This document shows, piece by piece, positions 2,642-64,000 of a stretch of DNA of 64,000 nucleotides. Below the pieces are notes generated by a model, which was not told the DNA's origin, searched no databases, and saw only the letters and a program-made list of their open reading frames with translations. Numbering within the stretch: position 1 is the first letter of the stretch; each line of letters opens with the position of its first letter. The stretch is from Eubacterium sp. 14-2 (GTDB lineage: Bacteria; Bacillota; Clostridia; Lachnospirales; Lachnospiraceae). Where the stretch lies: positions 62,001-126,000 of the forward strand of contig NZ_KE159568.1 in the NCBI RefSeq assembly GCF_000403845.2, read 5' to 3'. Made by a program: the position numbers and the translations under genes.

Positions 2642-3832
2642 CTATTTTACCAGCGCCACTGTTTCACGGGCAATGGCCAGCTCTTCATTGGTGGGCAGAC
2701 AGAGTACGGTTACCCTGGAATCAGGAGTGGAAATAATCTTTTCTTCTCCCCGCACCTGATTGGCCGCATCATCAATTGCAACGCCCAGATAGCCCAGGTA
2801 ATCACAGACACCCTTTCTGGTCTCCGGTCCGTTTTCTCCCACACCGGCGGTAAAACAGATTACATCTACTCCGTTCATGGCTGCGGTATAAGCTCCCACA
2901 TATTTTGCTACCCGGTAAATATAAGTCTCCAGCGCCCGGATTCCTCCCTGATCATCTCTGGCAGCTGCCGCTTCCAGATCCCGGAAATCACTGGAAATAT
3001 GGGAAAGTCCCTGAACACCGGATTTTTTGTTCAAAATTGTCATAATGCCTTCCAGATCCGTATTTTCTTTTTTGGCCAGATATTCCATGGCTCCCGGATC
3101 AATATCACCGGAACGTGTTCCCATAATCAGACCTTCCAGCGGAGTCAGTCCCATGGAAGTATCCACAGATTTACCATTCTTTACCGCGCAGATGGAAGCA
3201 CCGTTTCCCAGATGGCAGACAATGGTTTTTAATTCCTCATATGGCTTTCCGAGAAGTTCTGCCGCCCGTCTGGAAACATAGCTGTGAGAAGTTCCGTGGA
3301 AACCGTATTTCCGTACCCCGTATTTTTCATAATAGTCATAATCAATGCCATAGAGATATGCCTTTGCCGGCATGGTCTGATGGAATGCAGTGTCAAATAC
3401 CCCAACCATGGGTACTCCCGGCATCAGTTCCTGACATGCCCGGACTCCGATTAAATTGGCCGGGTTGTGGAGCGGAGCCAGATCATTGCATTCTTCCACT
3501 ACTTTCAGAACTTCTTCATTTAAAATCGTGGAACATGCAAATTTTTCTCCTCCATGAACCATCCTGTGGCCCACTGCCCCGATTTCCCCAAGGCTCTTTA
3601 AAGCTCCCGACCGGGGATTTACCAGCGCTTCCAGCACCATCTGGATTGCCTGTTTATGGGTAGGCATGTCCGCATCTGTAATTTCCTTTTCCCCGCCTGC
3701 TTTCTGGTATACCAGTCTTCCGTCCAGACCAATTCTCTCGCACAGTCCTTTTGCCAGCACTTCCTCCGTATCAGAATTGATTACCTGATATTTCAGAGAA
3801 GAACTGCCGCAGTTAATTACCAGTACATTCAT
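2642..3832 (-). CDS. ackA: Acetate kinase
   Basis: Converts acetyl phosphate and ADP to acetate and ATP in the cytoplasm, the energy-yielding end of acetate fermentation. The 396-residue protein begins MNVLVINCGSSSLKYQ, the ASKHA-fold phosphate motif, and contains GHRMVHGGE, FDTAFHQTMP, KYGFHGTSHSYV and TNEELAIARE, all canonical for AckA. The start at 3832 fits this N-terminus; a longer frame to 3931 would run through the promoter. The usual partner pta is not in the window; the divergent neighbour is tmcAL, whose product uses acetate. Confidence 0.97.
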   Translation of the reverse strand: MNVLVINCGSSSLKYQVINSDTEEVLAKGLCERIGLDGRLVYQKAGGEKEITDADMPTHKQAIQMVLEALVNPRSGALKSLGEIGAVGHRMVHGGEKFACSTILNEEVLKVVEECNDLAPLHNPANLIGVRACQELMPGVPMVGVFDTAFHQTMPAKAYLYGIDYDYYEKYGVRKYGFHGTSHSYVSRRAAELLGKPYEELKTIVCHLGNGASICAVKNGKSVDTSMGLTPLEGLIMGTRSGDIDPGAMEYLAKKENTDLEGIMTILNKKSGVQGLSHISSDFRDLEAAAARDDQGGIRALETYIYRVAKYVGAYTAAMNGVDVICFTAGVGENGPETRKGVCDYLGYLGVAIDDAANQVRGEEKIISTPDSRVTVLCLPTNEELAIARETVALVK

Positions 3833-3913
3833 GATTTTCCCTCTTCTTTCTGACTTTATTTCATTTCTTATTCTGTTTCCTGACTTCTGCATATTGCTTA
3901 ACCGTCTTTTTTC

Positions 3914-3942
3914 ATTATAAACCAATCCCATCCGCTATACAA
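3914..3942 (-). promoter_or_regulatory. Promoter of ackA
   Basis: Minus strand: TTGTAT, 17-base spacer, TATAAT. It lies about 80 bases before the ackA start. Confidence 0.75.
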
Positions 3943-4058
3943 GGAGATTTTTCCGGAAATCAGTTTTCAGGTAACGTTCATTCATCTCTGCATCTCATGC
4001 TCTGCAAATGCGTACAGAGTACAGGCTGAACTGCCTGGTTCTCAAATTTGGGAAAACA

Positions 4059-52647: not shown

Positions 52648-52730
52648 GCCGGCGTGTCGGAATGGCAGACGAGGCAGACTCAAAATCTGTTGTGGGCAAC
52701 CACGTGCGGGTTCAAGTCCCGCTGCCGGCA
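52648..52730 (+). tRNA. tRNA-Leu (CAA)
   Basis: An 83-nt class II tRNA. The acceptor strands GCCGGCG and TGCCGGC pair, the anticodon arm GCAGA-CTCAAAA-TCTGT gives anticodon CAA, the variable arm is TGTGGGCAACCACG, and the T-arm is GCGGGTTCAAGTCCCGC. CCA is not encoded. A prophage with its integrase begins immediately after the 3' end, so this gene is probably the attachment site. Confidence 0.95.
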
Positions 52731-52817
52731 GTTCTTACAGGTGCTGAATTCCTTTGGAAATAAAGGGGTTTGGCATTTTTTATGTGCTGATTGTTTTGAT
52801 TACTTTTGATTACCTTT

Positions 52818-54098
52818 TTATTTTGCAACTGTATGCAACATTACTGTTTCCTTATTTACATTTGAGACTATTGTATTCTTATAATCCATATCTGAAGCAT
52901 CATAAGTATAATTGTTATTATTTACCCTTTCTGTATGTCCTAAAATGGAAGATGCAACAACTGCTGATACCCCTTCACTTCTCAATTTGGAATTAAAAGT
53001 CCTCCTCATTGCATGGATGCTTTTAACCTCTATCCCAATTTGGATGCTCTTATTCCTTGCACAATCTGAAATTGTCCTTGCATGCACTCTTCCATTTTCA
53101 TTAGAGAAAACATACCTGGACAAATAACCATATACAGTTTCAACCTTTTTAATTTCCTTTAACAATACTTCCATTTCTTCTGTCATTGGAATTATTCTTT
53201 CTTTCCCATTTTTGGTAGTGTCAATGTAATATTCCTTGCTCTTTCTGTTATATTTTTCCGATTTGCAAACAATAATACATTTTTTGTTAAAGTCTATATT
53301 TTCCCACATAAGCCCTGATAATTCACCAGATCGCATACCCGTTAATGTTGCTAATTCCACTGCATAGGTTGGAATATATTGCGGTTTTACCTTATGGTCA
53401 TATTCAAATTGTTCATAAAACTTTTTCATTTGTTCATCTGATACAATTCGTTCCGAGGTGCTTTTACGCCTTTCCTCTTTACAAAATTTTTTCATTACAG
53501 GTAAATCTACATACTTGCATGGGTTTACTGTGATGATTTTATCTTTTACAGATTTTTCAAATATTCCATTTAACATGCTAAAAAGTGATTTGACTGCACG
53601 GTAATTCAATTCCTTTTCTTTTATCCTCTCGATTAAATATGCCGTTATGTCATCATCGTTTATGTCACGAATATTTCTATTTTCTAAATTACCATCCTCA
53701 AAAAACCGTTTATAATCCGATTCATATTTTGAAATCGTATTATCTACAACACCACAATCCTTTTGTCTTTTAACCCATACAGAATACCTATTATTAAATG
53801 TACATGTTTTGTTATCTTCCTTTTGCCTTTCCTGGCGATAAAACTGAATTATCAAATCTTCAATTTTATCTCTTGTACTTTTCTTTTTCAGAACCCTTCC
53901 TTTCCTATCATCCGGCAGATATGTATACCATTTTCCATCCTTGCCCTGCCAGATTTTATATTGATGTTTCTTTAATACTTCCTCTCTCTTCATAGCTTCC
54001 ATGCTATCCTGTACATCGTGTAGGTCAAGCATACCACTATTTATGATAAACTGCAATATTTCTGTGCTTTTCCCATATTGCAGGGTTTCCATTTCCAT
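52818..54098 (-). CDS. int: Tyrosine-family phage integrase
   Basis: A 426-residue site-specific recombinase. N-terminal arm-binding part (YKIWQGKDGKWYTYLPDDRK), SAM-like core-binding domain (ISKYESDYKRFFEDGN) and the catalytic domain with Arg in ATLTGMRSGELSGLMWENID, Lys in DTTKNGKERIIPM, His-x-x-Arg in IHAMRRTFNSKL, His in ILGHTERVNNNNYTYDAS with the nucleophile Tyr at its end. AGGA precedes the start. It reads toward the tRNA-Leu gene 88 bases away, the usual position for an integrase next to its attachment site. Confidence 0.95.
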   Translation of the reverse strand: MEMETLQYGKSTEILQFIINSGMLDLHDVQDSMEAMKREEVLKKHQYKIWQGKDGKWYTYLPDDRKGRVLKKKSTRDKIEDLIIQFYRQERQKEDNKTCTFNNRYSVWVKRQKDCGVVDNTISKYESDYKRFFEDGNLENRNIRDINDDDITAYLIERIKEKELNYRAVKSLFSMLNGIFEKSVKDKIITVNPCKYVDLPVMKKFCKEERRKSTSERIVSDEQMKKFYEQFEYDHKVKPQYIPTYAVELATLTGMRSGELSGLMWENIDFNKKCIIVCKSEKYNRKSKEYYIDTTKNGKERIIPMTEEMEVLLKEIKKVETVYGYLSRYVFSNENGRVHARTISDCARNKSIQIGIEVKSIHAMRRTFNSKLRSEGVSAVVASSILGHTERVNNNNYTYDASDMDYKNTIVSNVNKETVMLHTVAK

Positions 54099-54336
54099 AT
54101 TATTTCCTATATTATGTCACCTCTGTATCGTTTTATATTGTAAATGCAGCAGGATTCCCCCGCTGCATATAAGTATATATTTTTCAAATATTCCCTCTTC
54201 ATAATAAATGTTATATGTGCTGTCTTCTATGTTACCCTTACTGTTTGTTCCTGTTTCTTCTACAAAATATCATGCCATACAGGGACAGACATATGCTGTC
54301 CCATATGATTCCCTGTTACTAATTTTGCCTATACAT

Positions 54337-54597
54337 CTACTTGCATTTCTTTTTCAATTCCAGCTTATCTCTTCTCATTTCCTTAATAAGTTCCGCATAT
54401 TCCTGTTTCAGCCCATTCAGTTCCGTAATCCGTTCTGTATATTCCTGATATGCCTGCTCTGCAAGTTTTATCCTGTTTTCCACTGTTCCATGGCTGAAAG
54501 ATTCCAGCTGTTCTTTCAGGCACTCATTTTCTTCTGCCAGTCTTTCTATAGTTTTCTGCTGTGTCCGGATTTTTCTGTCTTTTTTAGTCAGATACAT
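54337..54597 (-). CDS. Small coiled-coil protein of the prophage
   Basis: An 86-residue helical protein (KTIERLAEENECLKEQLESF, EQAYQEYTERITELNGLKQE). GGAGG lies five bases before the start. No family recognised. It lies between a terminator and the integrase. Confidence 0.6.
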   Translation of the reverse strand: MYLTKKDRKIRTQQKTIERLAEENECLKEQLESFSHGTVENRIKLAEQAYQEYTERITELNGLKQEYAELIKEMRRDKLELKKKCK

Positions 54598-54628
54598 GTT
54601 TGCCTTCCTCCTGTTTTATATATTTTAA

Positions 54629-54661
54629 GAAAAAAATAAAAGTCCATATTTCAGGACTTTT
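54629..54661 (-). terminator. Terminator after the 78-residue prophage gene
   Basis: Minus strand: AAAAGTCC-TGAAATAT-GGACTTTT followed by ATTTTTTTC, 16 bases after the stop. Confidence 0.8.
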
Positions 54662-54677
54662 GTATGGTAGTGGTATT

Positions 54678-54914
54678 TTATTCGTGCTTTTGTTTTGAAA
54701 GCAATTCACAGGGCGATAAAATACTGTCCAGCATTGTAATCCCTTTCAGTTCTTCTTCCGCGCTTCCGGGCCCATATCTCCGTACAGGAAAACGTTTTCT
54801 GTCTTTCTGCTGTTTGATCTCTCTGGAAATCCGTGTAATGCTGCGCTCAAATTTATCAGTGGAAATCCCTTCTGATATATTCTTTTTCTCCTGTGCAAAG
54901 GTGATTTTTGCCAT
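54678..54914 (-). CDS. Small basic protein of the prophage
   Basis: A 78-residue protein, MAKITFAQEKKNISEGISTD, FERSITRISREIKQQKDRKR and a Leu-rich end. GAGGGG stands seven bases before the start at 54914. I do not recognise it. It lies downstream of the tape measure gene and is the last gene before a terminator. Confidence 0.6.
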   Translation of the reverse strand: MAKITFAQEKKNISEGISTDKFERSITRISREIKQQKDRKRFPVRRYGPGSAEEELKGITMLDSILSPCELLSKQKHE

Positions 54915-55011
54915 TGTACAACCCCTCTTTCTGCTGATGATCATAAAATTTCATGTAAATCTGCTTATCATTATATTCTTCTGCAATAATCATTCCTTTT
55001 TACAGACGCAG

Positions 55012-55050
55012 GAGGATATATGTCCTTTCATGCAGGTTGCATATATCCTC
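55012..55050. repeat. Inverted repeat after the tape measure gene
   Basis: Perfect 11-bp arms, 55012-55022 (GAGGATATATG) and 55040-55050, in the gap between the tape measure stop and the 78-residue gene. No T-run on the minus strand, so its role as terminator is doubtful. Confidence 0.5.
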
Positions 55051-55078
55051 TGCCTGTTGTTTTATTTCCGGTCTGCTT

Positions 55079-58000
55079 TTATAAAAATCTCCTTGCGCCT
55101 AATGAATTATGATTCCTGCCCAGTCCCCCGATACGGTGGTCAATGATTTTCCCCGCTTTAATATCTGTGGCAAGGTGCCTGTTGATTTCCTCACCAAACG
55201 CTTTCATGTCAGTTACCCCGTTCATGGTGATTCCTCCCATGTTTACAGTCACATCCCCACCATTATACTGGTTGTTTTCCGTGATGGAAGCCGGGAGCGT
55301 CTCTGGCGTTGTGATCTGTGCCGGGATGCCTGGGATTCCAAACTTCTCTCGTATTATGTCTGTGGGAAGCTGGGAGATCTCCCACAGCCTCTGTGTCATC
55401 TCATTGGTGAATATCCTGTCGCCTTTTCCGACTTCCCGGAGCACCCCTTTGTCTTTGTCAAACTGGAGTTCATTCCCTCCCTCGCCCAGGAATGCGAGCT
55501 GGTCATAAGGGATGTTGTAGGCACCGACCTTAAATCCGTTTATCCCGATTGCCTTCAGTTTCTTATACAGGGTTCCGGAGGATTTCTGGTTGTCGTATTT
55601 TACACCCAGAAGTTTTGCCAGTTCTTTCATCTGTGCGGTGGTCAGGACTTTTTTGCTGAATTTATCATAGAACTTTTTGTTGATGTCGGAAAGGTCACTG
55701 CGTTTTGCACTGGTTTTCTTCAGATTTTTATTCAGATAGGAGAGTGCGGATGTTTTCTGCATGACCGCAGCAGAATCAGAAGCGGAACTGTCCGTGATTG
55801 CCGCATCCTGTGCGGAAGAGTCTTTCCCCGGTGTTAATACTGTCCCTGTATTGACAGTTCCCGCATCAACAACAGTCGTTGGGAGTTTCCCGCCGACAGG
55901 AGGCTGCCATCCCGCCGGAAGCCCGGGTATCTGTGTCCCGGTACCTGCGGTTCCTCCGCCTGTATTTCCGGAACCGGCTCCGGTACCGTCTGCCGCAGCG
56001 GACGTATCCGCACCGGAAGCAATCCTGTCCACATAAGCAGTCATTTTCCCATGGAAGTCTTTCAGTTCTGCAAGCATGGCGGAGACAGAAACGGAAATTC
56101 CGGATTCATTCAGGACTGCACGGAATTCCTCTGTCGGCATATAGCCGATGCCTGTCATATGTTCTGTGATGGTCTGTACGGAATTTCCTGCGGTCTGTTC
56201 CATATCGGCAGTCAGTTCCCCGAAATTCTCAGACAGGGTATCAATGACTGCCTGAACCGCCTCATCAAAGTCTTCCTGTAATTCCGAGAGCATTTCCTTT
56301 GTGTCGGAAATATATTTGTCATACTGTGTTTCCGCAAGGTCTTTTTCCGCCTCTTCCAGTGAGACATTCAAAGACTGAACCTTCGCCTTTGTTTCTTCGG
56401 ATATGTCTCCCGCATATGCTTCAATCTGCTTGCGGAGGGCGGAAATCTCCTTTGTCTTATCCTCTATGGTGTTCTGATAGTCGAATGCGTCTTTCTGTGC
56501 GTCCAGCAGACGTTCGTATTCGCTGACCAGTTTTTTCAGTTTACCGGAGAGGGCTTCATATCCTTTGGTATAAAGGTCAATGACTGCATATTTTTCATCC
56601 TGTGCACCCTTTACTGCCTCCTGGTAGGATTTTACCAGTTCGTTCCTCCGTTCCAGAAGCGTTTTGTTATAAGGGTCGCCGGCAAGTTCCCGGTTTAATT
56701 TTGTAACTGCCTCCTGATAATCCTCTGCCTGCTTCCGGTATGTCTCATAACTGTTTGCATGGAGCCATGCCGCAGACTTTCCGCGCTCCGTCATCCATCC
56801 GATACTGTCATCCGCAGTTTTCTCCCTGGACAGTTCATTTATCATGAATTCATATTCGGAAATGACGTCGCCGACGCGCCCTTCCAGATAGTCAAAGCTG
56901 TCCCATGCAATCTGCCGCATCTGATTCCGGAATTCCGCAAGGGAAACCGCAGATTCCTCAATGGCTTCTGTCACATCGTCAATCTTTCCGCAGGCTTCAT
57001 ACCATTCGTCTGAAAACTTTGTGACCGCCCCTGTACTCACGGATTCTTCCAGTGAATGCACCAGGTCGGTGCGTTCCTGTGCAAGCACCTGATTCGTGGC
57101 TTCCTCATTCTGTATCAGGCGTTCATAATACTTTGTACTGGTCTGGTAGCCTTTTGCCTGTGTAATGTCCATGGCGTTATTGATACGTGCCGCCCTCCGG
57201 CTGTAAACGCTTTCCTTATGGGAATAATCTGTTTCAATATTGGCCATCTTTTCCAGTGCAAGGGCGGCGCGCTCCGTTTTTGCTGTCTGCTCATACAGGT
57301 CAGAGACTGCCTTTGCGGTATTCATGGCTTCCAGTGCTTCATTATAGCTGGAACATGCAAGTCCGAAACTGTCAGACACCCCGTATGCCTGTTCCAGATA
57401 TTCTGCCGGAATCAGGAGATTCCTGGACACAAACAGGGACTGGATTTCACTGACAACAGCACTTCCGGAAGCACTGTTTACCGCATGTTTCGCAGTGCCA
57501 AAATCAGCCACGGAATCATGGTAGGCTGCCCGGTAAGTTGCTTCATTCTGTGAAAGGTTTGCAATCTGGCTGTCCACGTACCGGTTCTTTGCCCCTGCGG
57601 AAGTCTGGTTTCTGGCAGTGGCTGCATAAAGTTCATTTTCCGTATCCCTTCCTGCCACCGTATTTGCGGCTTTTTCCCGTTTTGCCTGTAGGGCCTGTGC
57701 ATATGCCTGTGCCTTTGCAAGGGTTTCTGCCTCTTTTGCAGACAGTTCATTTTCCACCGCTTCATTATAGGCTTCGCAGTTGTAATAATAAGTCAGGTCG
57801 TTTTTCAGGTATTTCTGGCAGTATTCCTTTACCGCCTTTAATGCATCGCTGCTGATTTTCTTCCCGGCTTTGATTGCGGCAGCTGCCTGTTCCAGACGTT
57901 TCTTCAGCTTTTTGTCTTTCAGGTTCTTATAGGCCTTTTTTGTATAAAACTTTGCTTTGCCTGCTGCTGTCTTACGGTCTTTCTGTGCGTCTTCCCGCGC

Positions 58001-59039
58001 TTTTGTATAGGCGTTTACGTCTGCACTGCTCTGGCGCGTCTGCGTGTCGATGTTCTGATTTTTCGCCGCCGTACTCTCAGCATTGGACAGGGTATGACGG
58101 TCTGCTTTGGACTGGTTTGCGTCAAGCGTGTTACTTAACTGTTCCTGCCGGAGGTTTTTCTTTTCTTCCTGTGCAGTGAGAGCGTACATTTCAAGGTTCA
58201 GCCTGTTTTCCTCTTCCGCATTCTTATTGGCATTGTAACTGTTGCAGTAGGAGAGCAGGGTCTGCAGCTCTTTGTATTCCTTCCCCTTTGCAGTTTTCAT
58301 GGCATTTACAATCCCGTTAATCGTGGAAGTGGAAATGAGCTTTCCGGCTTTTACCTTTGCAATGGCCTGTGTGAAATATTTCCGGTTCTTTTTGGATACA
58401 TCCTTCTTATTGGCCTTCCGGATTTTATTCCCGTAGGATGCCCGGTCTTTGGCGGTCTTTTCATAAGCAGACTGGAGGTTCTTCTGCCTTGCGTCAATGT
58501 TCTTTGCTTTGTTGTTTAGCAGGCTGTTCTTCCCGGAAGCGGAAGAAGCGGTGGAAAGGCGGGTATCTGTCTTTTCATCAGCAGTGTCTTTTGCACTGTT
58601 TTTCCGTTCCGCACTCTGCCCCGCAAGGGAAGCGGAGGCAATGGCATTTTCTGCCATGGTCTTTGTAAGCTCCTGGATGGATTCGTTGTTTGCATTGATC
58701 CGTTCATTGTATTCGTGCCATGCCTCAGAACCTTTGGTGACGGTCTTCCGGAGTTCTTTCAGCTTTTTATTCTGGCTGATAATGTTCTTTATCTGTGACT
58801 GTACATTTTTATTCAGTTTTGTATAGTCTTTTGTATTGGTGGAGAATCCCCATGTTTCCTTAAAATCCATGGTATTCTGAATGCGTTTGTTTGCAGACTC
58901 CAGTTTTGTAAGGAGTTTTTCGTACTTTGTGATGAGGAGTTCAATCTTCTCACGGGCTAATTCTTTCTGGGTCTTTTTGAGCTCTTCTAATTTTTCCTGG
59001 CATTGAAGGGCTTTTTCATCTTTGTGTTTAGCTGGTTCG
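55079..59039 (-). CDS. Phage tail tape measure protein, exon 2 (C-terminal part)
   Basis: The C-terminal 1319 residues of the tape measure protein that sets tail length. After the proposed splice the sequence begins EPAKHKDEKALQCQEKLEEL. It contains three repeats of about 130 residues rich in Ala and Lys (FTQAIAKVKAGKLISTSTIN and LEQAAAAIKAGKKISSDALK are matching positions), then a long coiled coil with REKTADDSIGWMTERGKSAA, a Gly/Ser/Thr linker, and a terminal domain (GGNELQFDKDKGVLREVGKG, GGDVTVNMGGITMNGVTDMK) typical of tape measure C-termini in Clostridia. Without splicing, translation would need a new start inside it; an ATG at 58870 has no ribosome site. Confidence 0.85.
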
Positions 59040-59195
59040 CTAGGCCAGCCGGATATAAAAATCCCTCATGGTTTCCCATGAGAACAGACTATATCTTTTA
59101 CCTGTTGGGTGTTGTTTTTAAATTTGGGCATAAGAAAAGAGCAGGATATTAATTTCCCTGCTCTTTAAAATATGAATATATTTACTTGTAAAGCG

Positions 59196-59299
59196 AAAAA
59201 ACATCCCATATCTGGAATGCCTTTCTACCAAAACCCTATGGTGGACGACATTACAGCCGCCTTACATCCTCATGCACCGTATAAGGGAAATTACTTGGT
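59196..59299 (-). ncRNA. Candidate small RNA downstream of the DUF3800 gene
   Basis: About 104 nt between a strong promoter (59306-59334) and a terminator hairpin (CATTCC-AGATAT-GGGATG then T6, 59196-59219). The body contains complementary tracts (CCTTA with TAAGG, GGCG with CGTC). It lies 48 bases after the DUF3800 stop, inside the intron. Conserved RNAs found near DUF3800 genes have been described as 'DUF3800 motifs'; membership here is inferred from position only. Confidence 0.55.
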
Positions 59300-59305
59300 A
59301 AAATA

Positions 59306-59334
59306 AATATAACATACCATAATAGTGTTGTCAA
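59306..59334 (-). promoter_or_regulatory. Promoter of the small RNA candidate
   Basis: Minus strand: exact TTGACA (59329-59334), 17-base spacer, TATATT (59306-59311), directly after the DUF3800 stop codon. Confidence 0.7.
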
Positions 59335-59346
59335 GTATATTTTATA

Positions 59347-60078
59347 TTATTCATCCAATAATAATTTTGTGTCATGGTTAGTTGAAAAATCAAAGAATCT
59401 CCCACCACATAAATTATTCTGGAGCAATTTTACATTCTGAATGCTAGTATTGTCATGTTTTTCGATATTCCTGTAAAATGTATTGGATATGAAATCAATC
59501 AATTGTATCAGCGCATGATTTTTTGAATCCGAATATCTTACATCGAAATGGTTGCATATAGGGTTTACAACTGTCAGATGTTGATTTAAATATCCATCCA
59601 ATGTATATTCAGCATCAGTGGCAATATTCTGTTCATCAATAATTAAATGCATATCTGTAACAGTGTTTCTGTATCTGCTGCAATTTCTGAAAGAATTGTC
59701 AAAAAACATCTGAGTAATGTAGTTAAATGTCCTGGCATGGTTTTTAATGAATTCTTTCGTAGTATAATTATTGTCTAACACGATAATTCCAATTTCAAAA
59801 TCATCTTTGCAGTTCCTTACAATTCTGTCGTATATTTTATTTTTCTTAGTTTCACTTACTTCCGAACCTTTAATTTCACCGTTTTTATCCATTTTATCTT
59901 TGTAATTGGCATTTTTCATCAATGACGCTATTCCCTTTTTAAAATACCTTTTTATTCTTTTTGAATTTCTGGTGAACAGTATTGCAATTATAAAATATTT
60001 ATGATGCTCAATGTCCGTTTTTGTAATGCTTCCAGATTCATCTATAAATGCTGTTAAGAAATTTTTTTCTGTCTCCAT
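59347..60078 (-). CDS. DUF3800 family protein encoded inside the intron
   Basis: A 243-residue soluble protein of the DUF3800 family, which has an RNase H-like fold with unproven nuclease function. The Asp-Glu motif is in LTAFIDESGSITKTDIEHHK, a second Asp in MHLIIDEQN, and the C-terminal Asp in SKNHALIQLIDFISNTFYRN. No LAGLIDADG, GIY-YIG or HNH motif is present. The start is 60078 (METEKNFLTAF) with AGGGG eight bases upstream; codons further up lack a site. It reads in the intron's direction between the R and S segments. It takes the place where homing endonucleases usually lie. Its low GC content differs from the surrounding exons. Confidence 0.8.
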   Translation of the reverse strand: METEKNFLTAFIDESGSITKTDIEHHKYFIIAILFTRNSKRIKRYFKKGIASLMKNANYKDKMDKNGEIKGSEVSETKKNKIYDRIVRNCKDDFEIGIIVLDNNYTTKEFIKNHARTFNYITQMFFDNSFRNCSRYRNTVTDMHLIIDEQNIATDAEYTLDGYLNQHLTVVNPICNHFDVRYSDSKNHALIQLIDFISNTFYRNIEKHDNTSIQNVKLLQNNLCGGRFFDFSTNHDTKLLLDE

Positions 60079-60425
60079 AGTAATTTCCCCTATCATTCGT
60101 TTTATAATTTCCATTATATAACAATAATCGACAGGAGAGTAGAGAGAACATTTGTTTATTCTTATTCGTTTAAAATTTCATAATATAATTTTAACTCAAC
60201 AGGCAATCTACCATTACGGATAACCAATCGCTTGTTATCCTCTCGTCTGCGGTATGCAAACCTTTAGTCGTTGAACGTTCCCCTGTTCGGGGCTTCGCTG
60301 CTGGTTGCCCAATCCTTATCATTTTCAGACTTTCACGTATGGACGTGTTTCATTCCTTCGTTGTAGTTGATAAGGCTCTAAGGGTTTTCCAGACAATTAG
60401 ATAGAATTTTTCTTATCCATTGCTG

Positions 60426-63400
60426 AATAAGTTGGCGTGATTCCACCACTCTTTGTAATTTTTGATCCGTTCTTTCAGCCCGTCGTCCGAAACATCTGCA
60501 ATGTTGATGCTTCCGTCCCTGACCTGTTTTGCCCAGGATTCTTCCAGACCGATGCTGCCTGCCCGTGCCATGTAAGCCTGATAAGCCTGTTTCTGAATAT
60601 TGATCTCTCTGGTGACATTGGAGATGGCCTTTTTATATTCCCGCCCTCTGGAAGTGAAGCTGCGGAAGGTTTCTTCCGCCCTTGTTTTCAGACGTTCTAT
60701 GGCTGTTTCAATCCGTTTGATGGCTGTTTCAATAAAGTCAAAGGTCTCGATGGATTCTTTTGCAGAAGAGGAACCGGAACCGCCTGAACTGCTTCCTCCG
60801 GAACCGGAACCCGTACCCCCGGACTTTGCATAAAACTGTGAAGAGTCAAGCTGTGCGCCCTCCAGCTGTGCGCTCAGTTCCTGTTTCAGTTTTTCTTCCG
60901 TAATTCCTGTCATGATATTCTTTGCCGCATTCCCTGCTTTTCCCAGAAACGTACTGTTGTCAAATTCCATGTTCTTAAAGTGTAATAAGGCATTTGCAAG
61001 ATTCTGAATGTAGGAAGTGGATGCTCCGGCTGCATTGGCAATGGCAATAATCTGGTCTACGTCATCCTGGGTATTGATTTTTATGTTGTTTACGTCCATC
61101 TTTGAGATGGCAAGGGCTGTAAGGTAATCGGATGTTGTGTCAGAGGCTTCCCCTTCCCCAAGTAAGGATGCAATCTCTTCCCATGTCACGTCTGAAAGTT
61201 TCCTTCCGGCAAGGGCTGCACTGTCCTTTGCAAGGGCAAGATATTCTTCTTTTACTGTAAGCCTTTCTGTCACTAACTCTGCTGCATTTACCACGCCATT
61301 CTCTTCTAACATGGCAATGGTGGCTTCTTCTGTTTCTGCGGTCAGGTTATCCCAGATCCCGCTGCTGTCGATGACAGAGGTTGCAAGGTCGTCAAAGGCT
61401 TTCTGACAGGCATGGATGTCTTTGGGATTCTGTGTGACTGTTTTGATAAAATCATCATATGCTTTTCCTGCACCGCTGAATGTTTTCTCAAAATCTTCAT
61501 TGTTCAGGATGGAAGACCAGTCGAATTCCTCTCCGTCCTGTACATCGTCATAGACTTCCATGAGGGTTTTGAGGCTGTCGGACAGGGACTGGACACCGTC
61601 CAGGGAGGATTTGTAGGATGGCGGTTCTGACGTTTCTGTTTCCGAAATATCCCGTTGGAGTATGTCCCATTCCACAAGCAGGTCTAAAATTTCCTGTATC
61701 CCGTCGGCATTGTCACCTGTAATAATCCCGTATTCTTTCGCTTTGTCAATAATTGAGTTGAAAACAGCTTCCCCTTCCTGTGAGCCCTCTGTCTGGAGCA
61801 TCCCAAGAACATCATTCTCTGTTTTCCCCTGTAACCCGCTTATATCAAAATCAGGGATTATGTTTGTCTTGAATTCCCACTGTTCCACCATAGATTTTAA
61901 TTCCGGGTACATGGACTTAAAATAATCCGCAACCCCTGCGTCCCCGCTTTCCAGTGCTTTTGCGGACGCATCCATGATTATTTTTGCATAATCCTCCGCC
62001 GCTTTTGCAAGCTCCTGTTCCTCTCCCAAAACTGCTGCATCCTGGTATTTCTGGTAGGCCCCATTAATATCATTGAATGCGCTGTCATAAACCGCATTTT
62101 TGGATATTTCATCATAAAGGATATAACTGTCGTACATCTCTTTATAGCTTTCGGATACCTCTTTTGCGGCATTGGCCTGTTCTGTCAGGTAATTCCTGAA
62201 ATTATCTGTGGACAATGGGTTTGCATCGGAAAACATTTCCTGTAATTCCAGAAGTTTTTCATGCATCTCACTTGCGTTCCCGGACAGTTCCACAAACGGG
62301 TTGTTGGAGGCTGTTCCTTTCGCTCCATAAGTGATTTCCATGCCATTGTCTTCGAATAATTTCTTGAATTCCTCTATCTCTTTCGGGTTTAATCCGGTTG
62401 TGGCCACGGATAAATCCAGTTTCACTTTATAATCGCCATATTCCGATAACATGCGGTCTATGTTATCAGAGTATCCTTGGACAAAGTTTGCGGCATTGTT
62501 TGCAAATCCGCCATCGTTGAATTCGTTCTTTGCTTCCTGCCACTGTTTCTGCGCTAATTTATCAAAAGCCTGTGACTGTCCGTTGACTGCTTCCGTAATC
62601 AAGTCGATTGCGCTTTTTTCACTGCCGTATTTGTCAATTAATTCGTCCTGGATTAACATAAGGCTTTTGCGGGCTTCCGTGACATCGGAGATGGAGGAGC
62701 TGGAATCATTGAGCACCGCTTGCAGCTCTTCCACTTTTGATTTGTAGCTGTCTATGTTGGATTTTGCGCTGTTGAAAGTGTTGCTTACTTCATCTGCTTT
62801 CTGCGCAACGTCGCCTGACACACGGATGAAGTTTGAAACCGCTGTTGCAACTGCCTGTATGCCAAGGCTTAACCCTAACGTTAATGCGGAATTTAAAAGC
62901 ACTGTTTTGATCCTTAATGAATCCGTTGATACACCACAGGAAGCCAGATAGGAGCGGTATCCTGCTAATGATGCAGGGGCTTCTACAGATGTTGTCTGGA
63001 GGTATGCTCTTAATTGTGCATTGCTTTCTCCAACTGCTCCATTAAAATTATCTATATCTGCTGTCCCTGCTATTAATTCATCATTCCAACCACTAATAGC
63101 CGTTTCTGCATTTCTATAATGGTTTAACTGCTTCTTATACTCAGTAATATTGATCCCCATAAAGTTTCCTTGCAAATCTATCTTATGGGTATCCTTATTA
63201 TATAATTGCGTTATGCCATAATTCTTATTGAGTGCTGTCATCCCTGCCTGGAACGTGGTGAGGATAACCGGGATCGCCCCTATTGCGTCACCCAGCTTTT
63301 CAAACGACTGGATTGCATTGTCAAGGAATGACACACCGCCTTTTATCACATCCTTGTTGGTAATGGATGCTACAAAACTGTCCCATGTATTCTGCAAAGC

Positions 63401-64000
63401 ATTCAAGCGGCCTTCAAGGGAATCCGCACTTTTCCCTGCTTCCTGTAAAGCGGAACCTTCCGCATTTTCATAATCGCCTAACATTTTTGTGTATGTAGAC
63501 CAGTTAGAAAGTATGCTGCTTAAAACATTCCCCCTATATTTTCCACCAATGTCTGAAATGATATTTGCACGTTCTGCACTGTCTTTAGGGAGGGCATTGT
63601 ATGTTTCCGCAAGTTCTTTTAAAATGGATATTGGATTGCGTAAGCGGGTTGTCCCATCCACAAACTCCTTCATTTTAATCCCAAGGGAATCTAAGCGGCT
63701 TTCCACTTTTCCAAGGTCTTCTTCCGTTGTTTCAAACCCTTCCTCTGTATTCTTCACCTGCTGCAGGTTCATCACAATTGCCTTAACAGCCCTGCCAACG
63801 ACCTGCCCTGATTCTTTTGTCGTTGCAATGCCAGCCCCTAACAGCGCAGTCATTTGATCCTCAGAAATGTTTGAATTTGCAAGCTGGTTTGCGGCAACTT
63901 TAGTTGCATCTGCCAATTCTGTGAGGGATACTGCATTGCGGTTCGTCACTTGGTTCTGAGAATCAAGGAGCGCATTTAATTTTTCCACATTTCCTTGATA
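60426..64000 (-). CDS. Phage tail tape measure protein, exon 1 (start outside window)
   Basis: About 1190 residues of the N-terminal part; the frame continues past the window edge. The TP901-type core is visible (ELADATKVAANQLANSNISE, ALLGAGIATTKESGQVVGRA, PISILKELAETYNALPKDSA, DIGGKYRGNVLSSIL), followed by a hydrophobic segment (LNSALTLGLSLGIQAVATAV) and long helical regions ending in EWWNHANL. The last codon is split TT/C across the intron. Reading on into the intron adds only FSNG and a stop, the expected sign of an unspliced intron. Confidence 0.88.

Follow-up and report, generated by a model that had tools for sequence, protein, structure and literature searches.

Mobile cargo inside a group I intron is an arrangement familiar from IStrons, in which a group I intron is joined to an IS605-type element. 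The locus analysed here, in a window of 64,000 nucleotides from the genome of Eubacterium sp. 14-2 (contig NZ_KE159568.1), is alike in this respect but differs in that no TnpA or TnpB domain occurs in its cargo, which stays within the P8 loop of a predicted intron. Group I introns with HNH homing genes have been described in phage tail and tape-measure genes, namely in ICP1 (PMC10448857) and in mycobacteriophage Cluster J (PMC3706429). Like our locus, these are introns of group I that interrupt a tail-type gene and themselves carry a gene, whereas the cargo in our window consists of a DUF3800 gene and a putative structured RNA instead of a homing endonuclease family.

Structured RNAs beside DUF3800 genes are also represented in Rfam by a series of motifs (RF02969 DUF3800-I, RF02975 DUF3800-XI, RF02967 DUF3800-VII and others). 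The RNA described below, however, matches none of them at E ≤ 10 and lies downstream of the gene behind a promoter-like sequence of its own, and a group I intron setting was found in 0 of 28 DUF3800 loci compared. A further likeness is to type III toxin–antitoxin systems (ToxIN, CptIN; PMC4627078, PMC8860590), in which mobile elements carry a protein of nuclease type together with a small structured RNA. The antitoxin of type III systems is encoded as tandem repeats upstream of the toxin, whereas our RNA is single and downstream. The protein in the window also lacks a match to the CptIN or ToxN families (none to ToxN, CptN or TenpN toxins in NCBIfam at E ≤ 1 or in Pfam at E ≤ 0.01), and its fold is unrelated by name. 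DUF3800 proteins have moreover been found as neighbours of class 2 effectors, Cas12a2 among them (PMC10910872, PMC12669027), and have been treated as nucleases of RNase H fold with a catalytic rearrangement, with mention of earlier links to non-coding RNA (PMC10910872), and as accessory nucleases in some CRISPR loci (PMC12669027). The reading of the protein is shared with these papers, but no CRISPR component was found in the window's intron, and the partner would be a dedicated RNA.

Intron core and splice junction

An Rfam scan of 1.7 kb (58900–60600) returned a minus-strand match to the group I intron model RF00028 at 60454–60195 (45.9 bits, E = 4.5e-10), just below the gathering score of 50 for this family, and the 3′ part of the intron, from P7′ to P9, was matched separately by the same model at 59098–59067 (19.9 bits, E = 0.028). 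When the whole window is scanned at gathering thresholds, the intron is absent from the matches. Judged by sequence, the minus strand of the window carries a phage-type group I intron, as the preliminary description had proposed, and the P7 pairing (GACTA with TAGTC, 60269–60265 and 59091–59087) and GNRA-capped P9 (59082–59065) that it named are confirmed. The intron and exon features are as follows.

59020..60444, minus strand: group I intron with corrected limits, 1425 nt (RF00028 matches; junction from 12 of 12 spanning intron-less loci and from L021 DNA)
60445..64000, minus strand: 5′ exon of the tape-measure-like gene, running past the window to a start codon at 65002 (PhageMin_Tail PF10145, E = 3.8e-11; phrog_4211, E = 1.6e-48)
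55079..59019, minus strand: 3′ exon of the tape-measure-like gene (phrog_4211, E = 2.4e-10; spliced frame without stop)
60433..60436, minus strand: 3′ strand of P1, GCCA, pairing with 60445–60448 (U.G and three pairs; from sequence)
60412..60431, minus strand: P2 hairpin, 60431–60426 with 60418–60412, formerly taken for P1 (motif positions; Rfam splice-site U upstream, at 60445)
60207..60212, minus strand: 3′ strand of P3, GGTAGA, with its 5′ strand TCTATC at 60400–60405 (motif positions)
60265..60269, minus strand: 5′ strand of P7, GACTA, with its 3′ strand TAGTC at 59087–59091 (motif positions and Rfam alignment)
60197..60203, minus strand: 5′ strand of P8, CCTGTTG, with its 3′ strand CAACAGG at 59101–59107; the cargo lies within the P8 loop (motif positions)
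59065..59082, minus strand: P9 with a GAAA loop (motif positions and Rfam 3′ match)

The limits given here depart from those first proposed. Splicing at 59040–60425 does leave the frame open, as claimed, but it adds 13 residues (NHANLFEPAKHKD) that none of the 12 intron-less tape-measure loci with a match across the site contains (two further loci, L015 and L016, do not span it and were excluded from the count). We therefore place the intron at 60444–59020. Joining t60445 to a59019 yields KNYKEWYEKALQ, which matches the relatives and sets the protein junction between KEWY and EKALQ. In an IMG/VR contig that is 74% identical (L021), the protein is encoded by a single open frame across the intron site; this contig reads TGGTACGAA where the spliced window has TGGT followed by ATGAA, and its DNA across the site is AAGGAGTGGTACGAAAAGGCA, the window equivalent after splicing being AAAGAGTGGT joined to ATGAAAAAGCC.

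On this comparison of sequences, the corrected junction restores the intron-less gene, with a U preceding the intron and a G as the last intron base, and in our own reading of the Rfam alignment its splice-site U is the same base, 60445. The hairpin originally named P1 (CTTATTCAGCAATGGATAAG) lies downstream of this U and reads as P2; it is stronger than the P1 at the corrected site, which is short (a U.G and three pairs with GCCA at 60436–60433). The 3′ splice site first proposed falls in the loop of an extra hairpin at 59049–59031, near the 3′ end of the intron. After splicing, the tape-measure-like frame comprises 2832 residues without a stop, with its start codon beyond the window. When the junction was searched in 291 genomes of the host's class, only the window's own genome matched.

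Protein and RNA of the cargo

The cargo, about 1 kb in length, lies wholly inside the P8 loop and comprises these features.

59132..60160, minus strand: cargo module, as the extent of DNA homology to locus L025 (blastn, 73% over 1053 columns)
59347..60078, minus strand: DUF3800 gene, 243 aa, start set by alignment with L022 (PF12686; alignment of relatives; pN 0.052 and pS 0.72 against L022)
59306..59334, minus strand: putative promoter of the RNA, TTGACA-17-TATATT, its second hexamer preceded by TG (agrees with the consensus at 11 of 12 positions, the best in the region)
59136..59299, minus strand: putative structured RNA gene, about 164 nt, conserved core 59190–59299 (model R1, 140 bits; covariation)
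59136..59166, minus strand: terminator-like stem of the RNA, 10 pairs, loop of 11, interrupted T run (from sequence)

The only protein family found within the intron (Pfam, E ≤ 0.01) is DUF3800, whose profile PF12686 matches with 56.1 bits (E = 8.9e-15) and exceeds the curated cut-off of 21 bits; LAGLIDADG, GIY-YIG, HNH and His-Cys domains were absent from the intron protein at the same threshold, which bears out the earlier statement that DUF3800 stands in the place of a known homing endonuclease. All 16 aligned sequences retain residues D25, E26, E80, D160, E161 and D207, and the divergence from L022 (pN 0.052, pS 0.72) indicates purifying selection. An AlphaFold2 model built with 16 sequences (pLDDT 82, pTM 0.83) was searched with Foldseek, and the top five solved structures were RNase HII chains (E = 3.3e-5 to 2.5e-3), although these matches are loose (TM 0.39–0.55, rmsd about 7–8). 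A search of solved structures by sequence returned none at E ≤ 0.001. The IDESG start of the protein is reminiscent of the RNase HII DE motif. Taken together, the protein is predicted to be an RNase HII-like nuclease.

Downstream of the DUF3800 gene, in the same P8 loop, lies a putative RNA gene that the preliminary description had missed; its start would be expected near 59299. Its promoter-like sequence stands out by its quality, the 12 promoter-like sites of the region being in number not above shuffles (8.2, s.d. 3.1). A terminator scan restricted to loops of 3–8 does not list the stem at 59166–59136, which has an 11-base loop. Scanned against Rfam (58900–60600), the RNA matched no family, including the DUF3800 RNAs at E ≤ 10.

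For its structure, four helices were drawn by hand on an alignment of seven sequences from one clade, converted into model R1 and used to search 45 sources; a second clade that is absent from the model was still matched (76–83 bits, E of about 1e-13 to 1e-14). The covariation alignment holds 14 sequences, 11 of them distinct, and was fitted to R1, so that its counts lean towards the model. In it, standard pairs occupy 97.3% of cells, compared to 34–43% in slid-strand controls, changes on both sides occur in 11 of 27 pairs (shuffled mean 7.8, reached by 3 of 500 shuffles), and the covariation score reaches 0.357, where shuffles average 0.181. Another of the five covariation measures, further pair types, is at the level of shuffles (18 versus 17.7, the former equalled or exceeded by 300 of 500 shuffles), and helix 4 contains no double change. 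RNAalifold, applied to a plain MAFFT alignment, gave a different and poorer structure (24 pairs, 3 with double changes), which we did not adopt. The 110-nt core is identical between the window and L025 despite saturated synonymous sites in their DUF3800 genes (pS 0.79). By covariation, the putative RNA downstream of DUF3800 is structured.

Occurrence of the module and of DUF3800 genes in introns

A protein scan of GTDB species genomes yielded 19 loci whose best segments are 50–90% identical and whose titles name Lachnospiraceae, Clostridiales, Eubacterium or Butyrivibrio; they are not all independent, as L031–L033 are near identical. The RNA core directly follows DUF3800 in 15 of the 19, behind a promoter-like sequence recognised by eye. 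The four others are L027, L029, L030 and L039; for L027, L029 and L030, the genome has the RNA on the same contig, 9.7–9.8 kb downstream and with a promoter-like sequence of its own, which suggests that it is able to act in trans. The genes between DUF3800 and the distant RNA are glycosyltransferase-like and membrane-protein-like by eye; this cluster of about 9.7 kb (L128, L129, L130) appears by eye to be of polysaccharide type. The RNA shares a contig with DUF3800 in the window and in each of the 17 near-full-length loci. L040 keeps an intact RNA beside an internally deleted DUF3800, and L039 has a broken DUF3800 and no RNA match in its assembly.

Around the module of L025 no group I intron was detected by the Rfam scan, and the same holds for the nine of 17 intact close relatives that were scanned (L034 as L002). 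With the two halves of the window's intron as blastn queries on all 19 loci, a 3′ remnant in L039 alone matched. By eye, the modules adjoin phage-type, conjugation-type and chromosomal genes. Since relatives with the same RNA lie outside detected group I introns, DUF3800 and the RNA are, as far as their sequences can be read, an autonomous module that here sits in an intron. Such modules are rare: among 397 genomes from the host's family, R1 hit just two, that of the window itself and the genome containing L002. At L002/L034 (600–830), the module comes just after an open frame that resembles, by eye, the cut-off end of a gene of helicase type, which would fit an insertion into that gene. L038 encodes, besides the module studied, a second DUF3800-like gene (3253–4022, by eye) behind a DUF3800-XI RNA (56 bits).

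DUF3800 genes as such occur in 44 of 200 genomes from the host's family. Of the 30 matches whose loci were retrieved, two are the window's gene and that of L002. The 28 others contain no group I match at E ≤ 0.1 and no R1 RNA, so that neither this survey nor the nine relatives scanned with Rfam supplied a second DUF3800 gene in a group I intron; 12 of the 28 carry Rfam DUF3800 RNAs above the gathering score (nine XI, two I, one VII). Neither a group I intron nor an Rfam DUF3800 RNA reached the gathering score in 17 viral DUF3800 loci, a threshold that misses the window's intron too. No paper joining DUF3800 to a group I intron was found in a search of open-licence literature. Viral contigs held no close relatives of the protein and no exact RNA cores, and blastn with the RNA on plasmid and phage collections gave no match. 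A relative is present in 30 of 50,697 phage records, comprising 20 streptococcal satellites and 10 Listeria phages; in the three inspected more closely, it lies between endolysin and attachment site in PSA, between regulator and integrase in Javan555, and among unnamed genes in Javan276.

The 5′ part of the intron is of a common phage type, with blastn matches in 210 of the 50,697 records (E ≤ 0.01), none covering 80% of it. Its exact core pattern is common to 17 viral contigs, in 15 of which the first P7′-like motif follows P7 after 34 to 103 bases and leaves no room for cargo. The other two hold a long open reading frame: in L114 the first P7′-like motif comes 1326 bases after P7, and in L107 there is none in the 1331 bases available. 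A same-genus genome (L041 and L045) has two cargo-free group I introns above the gathering score, in a gene that is conjugative-element-like by eye.

At L039 (5000–6100), the next features after the broken DUF3800 are a toxin gene of CptIN type (NF047359, E = 3.9e-18, below the curated cut-off) and repeat-like RNA sequence; the stretch there that resembles the 3′ end of the window's intron spans 29 bases at 90% (blastn) and receives no Rfam score. CptIN relatives in viral contigs came from two loci, one of which, L131, has no intron half by blastn or Rfam. We make no claim that type III systems ride in introns, given L131 and the unscored remnant in L039.

Proposed role of the cargo, and its host element

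We consider it somewhat more probable than the reverse that the cargo is a passenger protein–RNA module of toxin–antitoxin or abortive-infection type, housed in the P8 loop of a self-splicing-type intron, and that it is not a homing nuclease. The intron would splice itself out of the tape-measure-like mRNA and leave the host gene unharmed, as the junction suggests. The P8 loop would hold a self-contained passenger, made up of the DUF3800 gene and a structured RNA that is strongly conserved and has transcription of its own; promoters inside the cargo would drive the RNA and possibly DUF3800 too. Most likely the RNA forms a complex with the DUF3800 protein and either restrains the nuclease activity of the protein or directs it, and the pair may serve in toxicity or defence. 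Such a module fits because a conserved RNA that can work at a distance is paired with a predicted nuclease in varied gene surroundings. An antitoxin role for the RNA fits because the protein was not seen without the RNA and the RNA outlives a broken protein once, the asymmetry expected of toxin and antitoxin (L040 with an intact RNA, L039 with neither intact), in few cases. The fit with a toxin–antitoxin role comes mainly from co-occurrence within one bacterial group. Several findings count against the overall reading: the terminator-like stem lies in the direction of the host gene, and making the long transcript would require read-through; known type III systems differ in the number and position of the RNA, which here is a single downstream copy; PADLOC gave no match; and the RNase HII match is loose and P1 at the corrected site short. 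That the intron is a harmless site for a passenger had already been suggested in the preliminary description, and our results support and extend this idea, as the passenger would consist of a protein and a separately transcribed RNA and recurs outside detected group I introns.

RNase H-type folds occur in guided nucleases, and the protein and the RNA go together, which could mean that DUF3800 is a nuclease guided by the RNA, for homing or against a fixed target. Argonaute PIWI chains do appear among the Foldseek matches, but they are insignificant (E = 0.27 and above), and the occurrence of DUF3800 beside some CRISPR effectors (PMC10910872, PMC12669027) points the same way. We nevertheless judge guidance unlikely. 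From one unrelated insertion site to another the RNA hardly varies, which argues against a site-specific guide; its duplex with the empty site is no better than duplexes with stretches taken at random from the window, of which 99% (sense) and 74% (antisense) are at least as stable; and its invariant 13-mer has no exact match elsewhere in the host genome. RNA-guided homing is disfavoured because the RNA is near-constant and without a match to the empty site, while guidance to one fixed target is possible.

The other earlier suggestion, that DUF3800 is the mobility endonuclease of the intron, cutting the intron-less tape-measure allele so that the intron is copied in, is not supported and has in our view a small chance of being right. 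In its favour, DUF3800 is the sole protein family in the intron and a predicted nuclease, it occupies the P8 position where the viral intron L114 has its long open reading frame, and tape-measure introns with HNH homing genes are described in PMC10448857. However, relatives of the module lie in many different places outside detected group I introns with the RNA alongside, and homing by DUF3800 is disfavoured because of these copies; the predicted fold is RNase HII-like and not LAGLIDADG, GIY-YIG or HNH, and the 28 other loci of the host's family lack a group I match. That the RNA merely regulates its neighbour, as a cis element or antisense to the DUF3800 mRNA and without a complex with the protein, is improbable: it usually adjoins the gene, but it has its own promoter-like sequence and a downstream position, is 9.7–9.8 kb away in three genomes, and forms duplexes with the DUF3800 mRNA whose energies are within about one s.d. 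of shuffled mRNA in 6 of 6 modules.

With the passenger reading, a protein family of unknown function gains a second, apparently inseparable component with a predicted structure and promoter, and the function of DUF3800 and its RNA becomes approachable with two short genes. A group I intron carrying a protein together with an RNA, instead of a mobility gene of a recognised kind, would also widen the view of intron cargo. More tentatively, and with some doubt, DUF3800 proteins in general might be RNase HII-like effectors of a protein–RNA class of their own, each subfamily checked or directed by its own structured RNA, with phage group I introns as neutral landing sites where such a system does an essential gene no harm.

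As to the host gene, which had been described as the tape measure gene of a prophage, its tape-measure-like character stands (PF10145, phrog_4211), and we do not insist on a working prophage, its neighbours being odd. Between this gene and a tyrosine integrase (PF00589) beside a tRNA gene (window 52648–55079), there are just two small open reading frames on the same strand and no tail-tip or lysis gene, and upstream 0 of 10 encoded proteins matched a named phage structural family. Because of this gene content, we call the gene tape-measure-like and its carrier an integrated element. Some 31 kb upstream of where the window ends, locus L134 (11603–14005) of the host genome encodes a protein of 801 residues that combines a NACHT-type NTPase region with pentapeptide repeats and whose gene may serve this element in defence.
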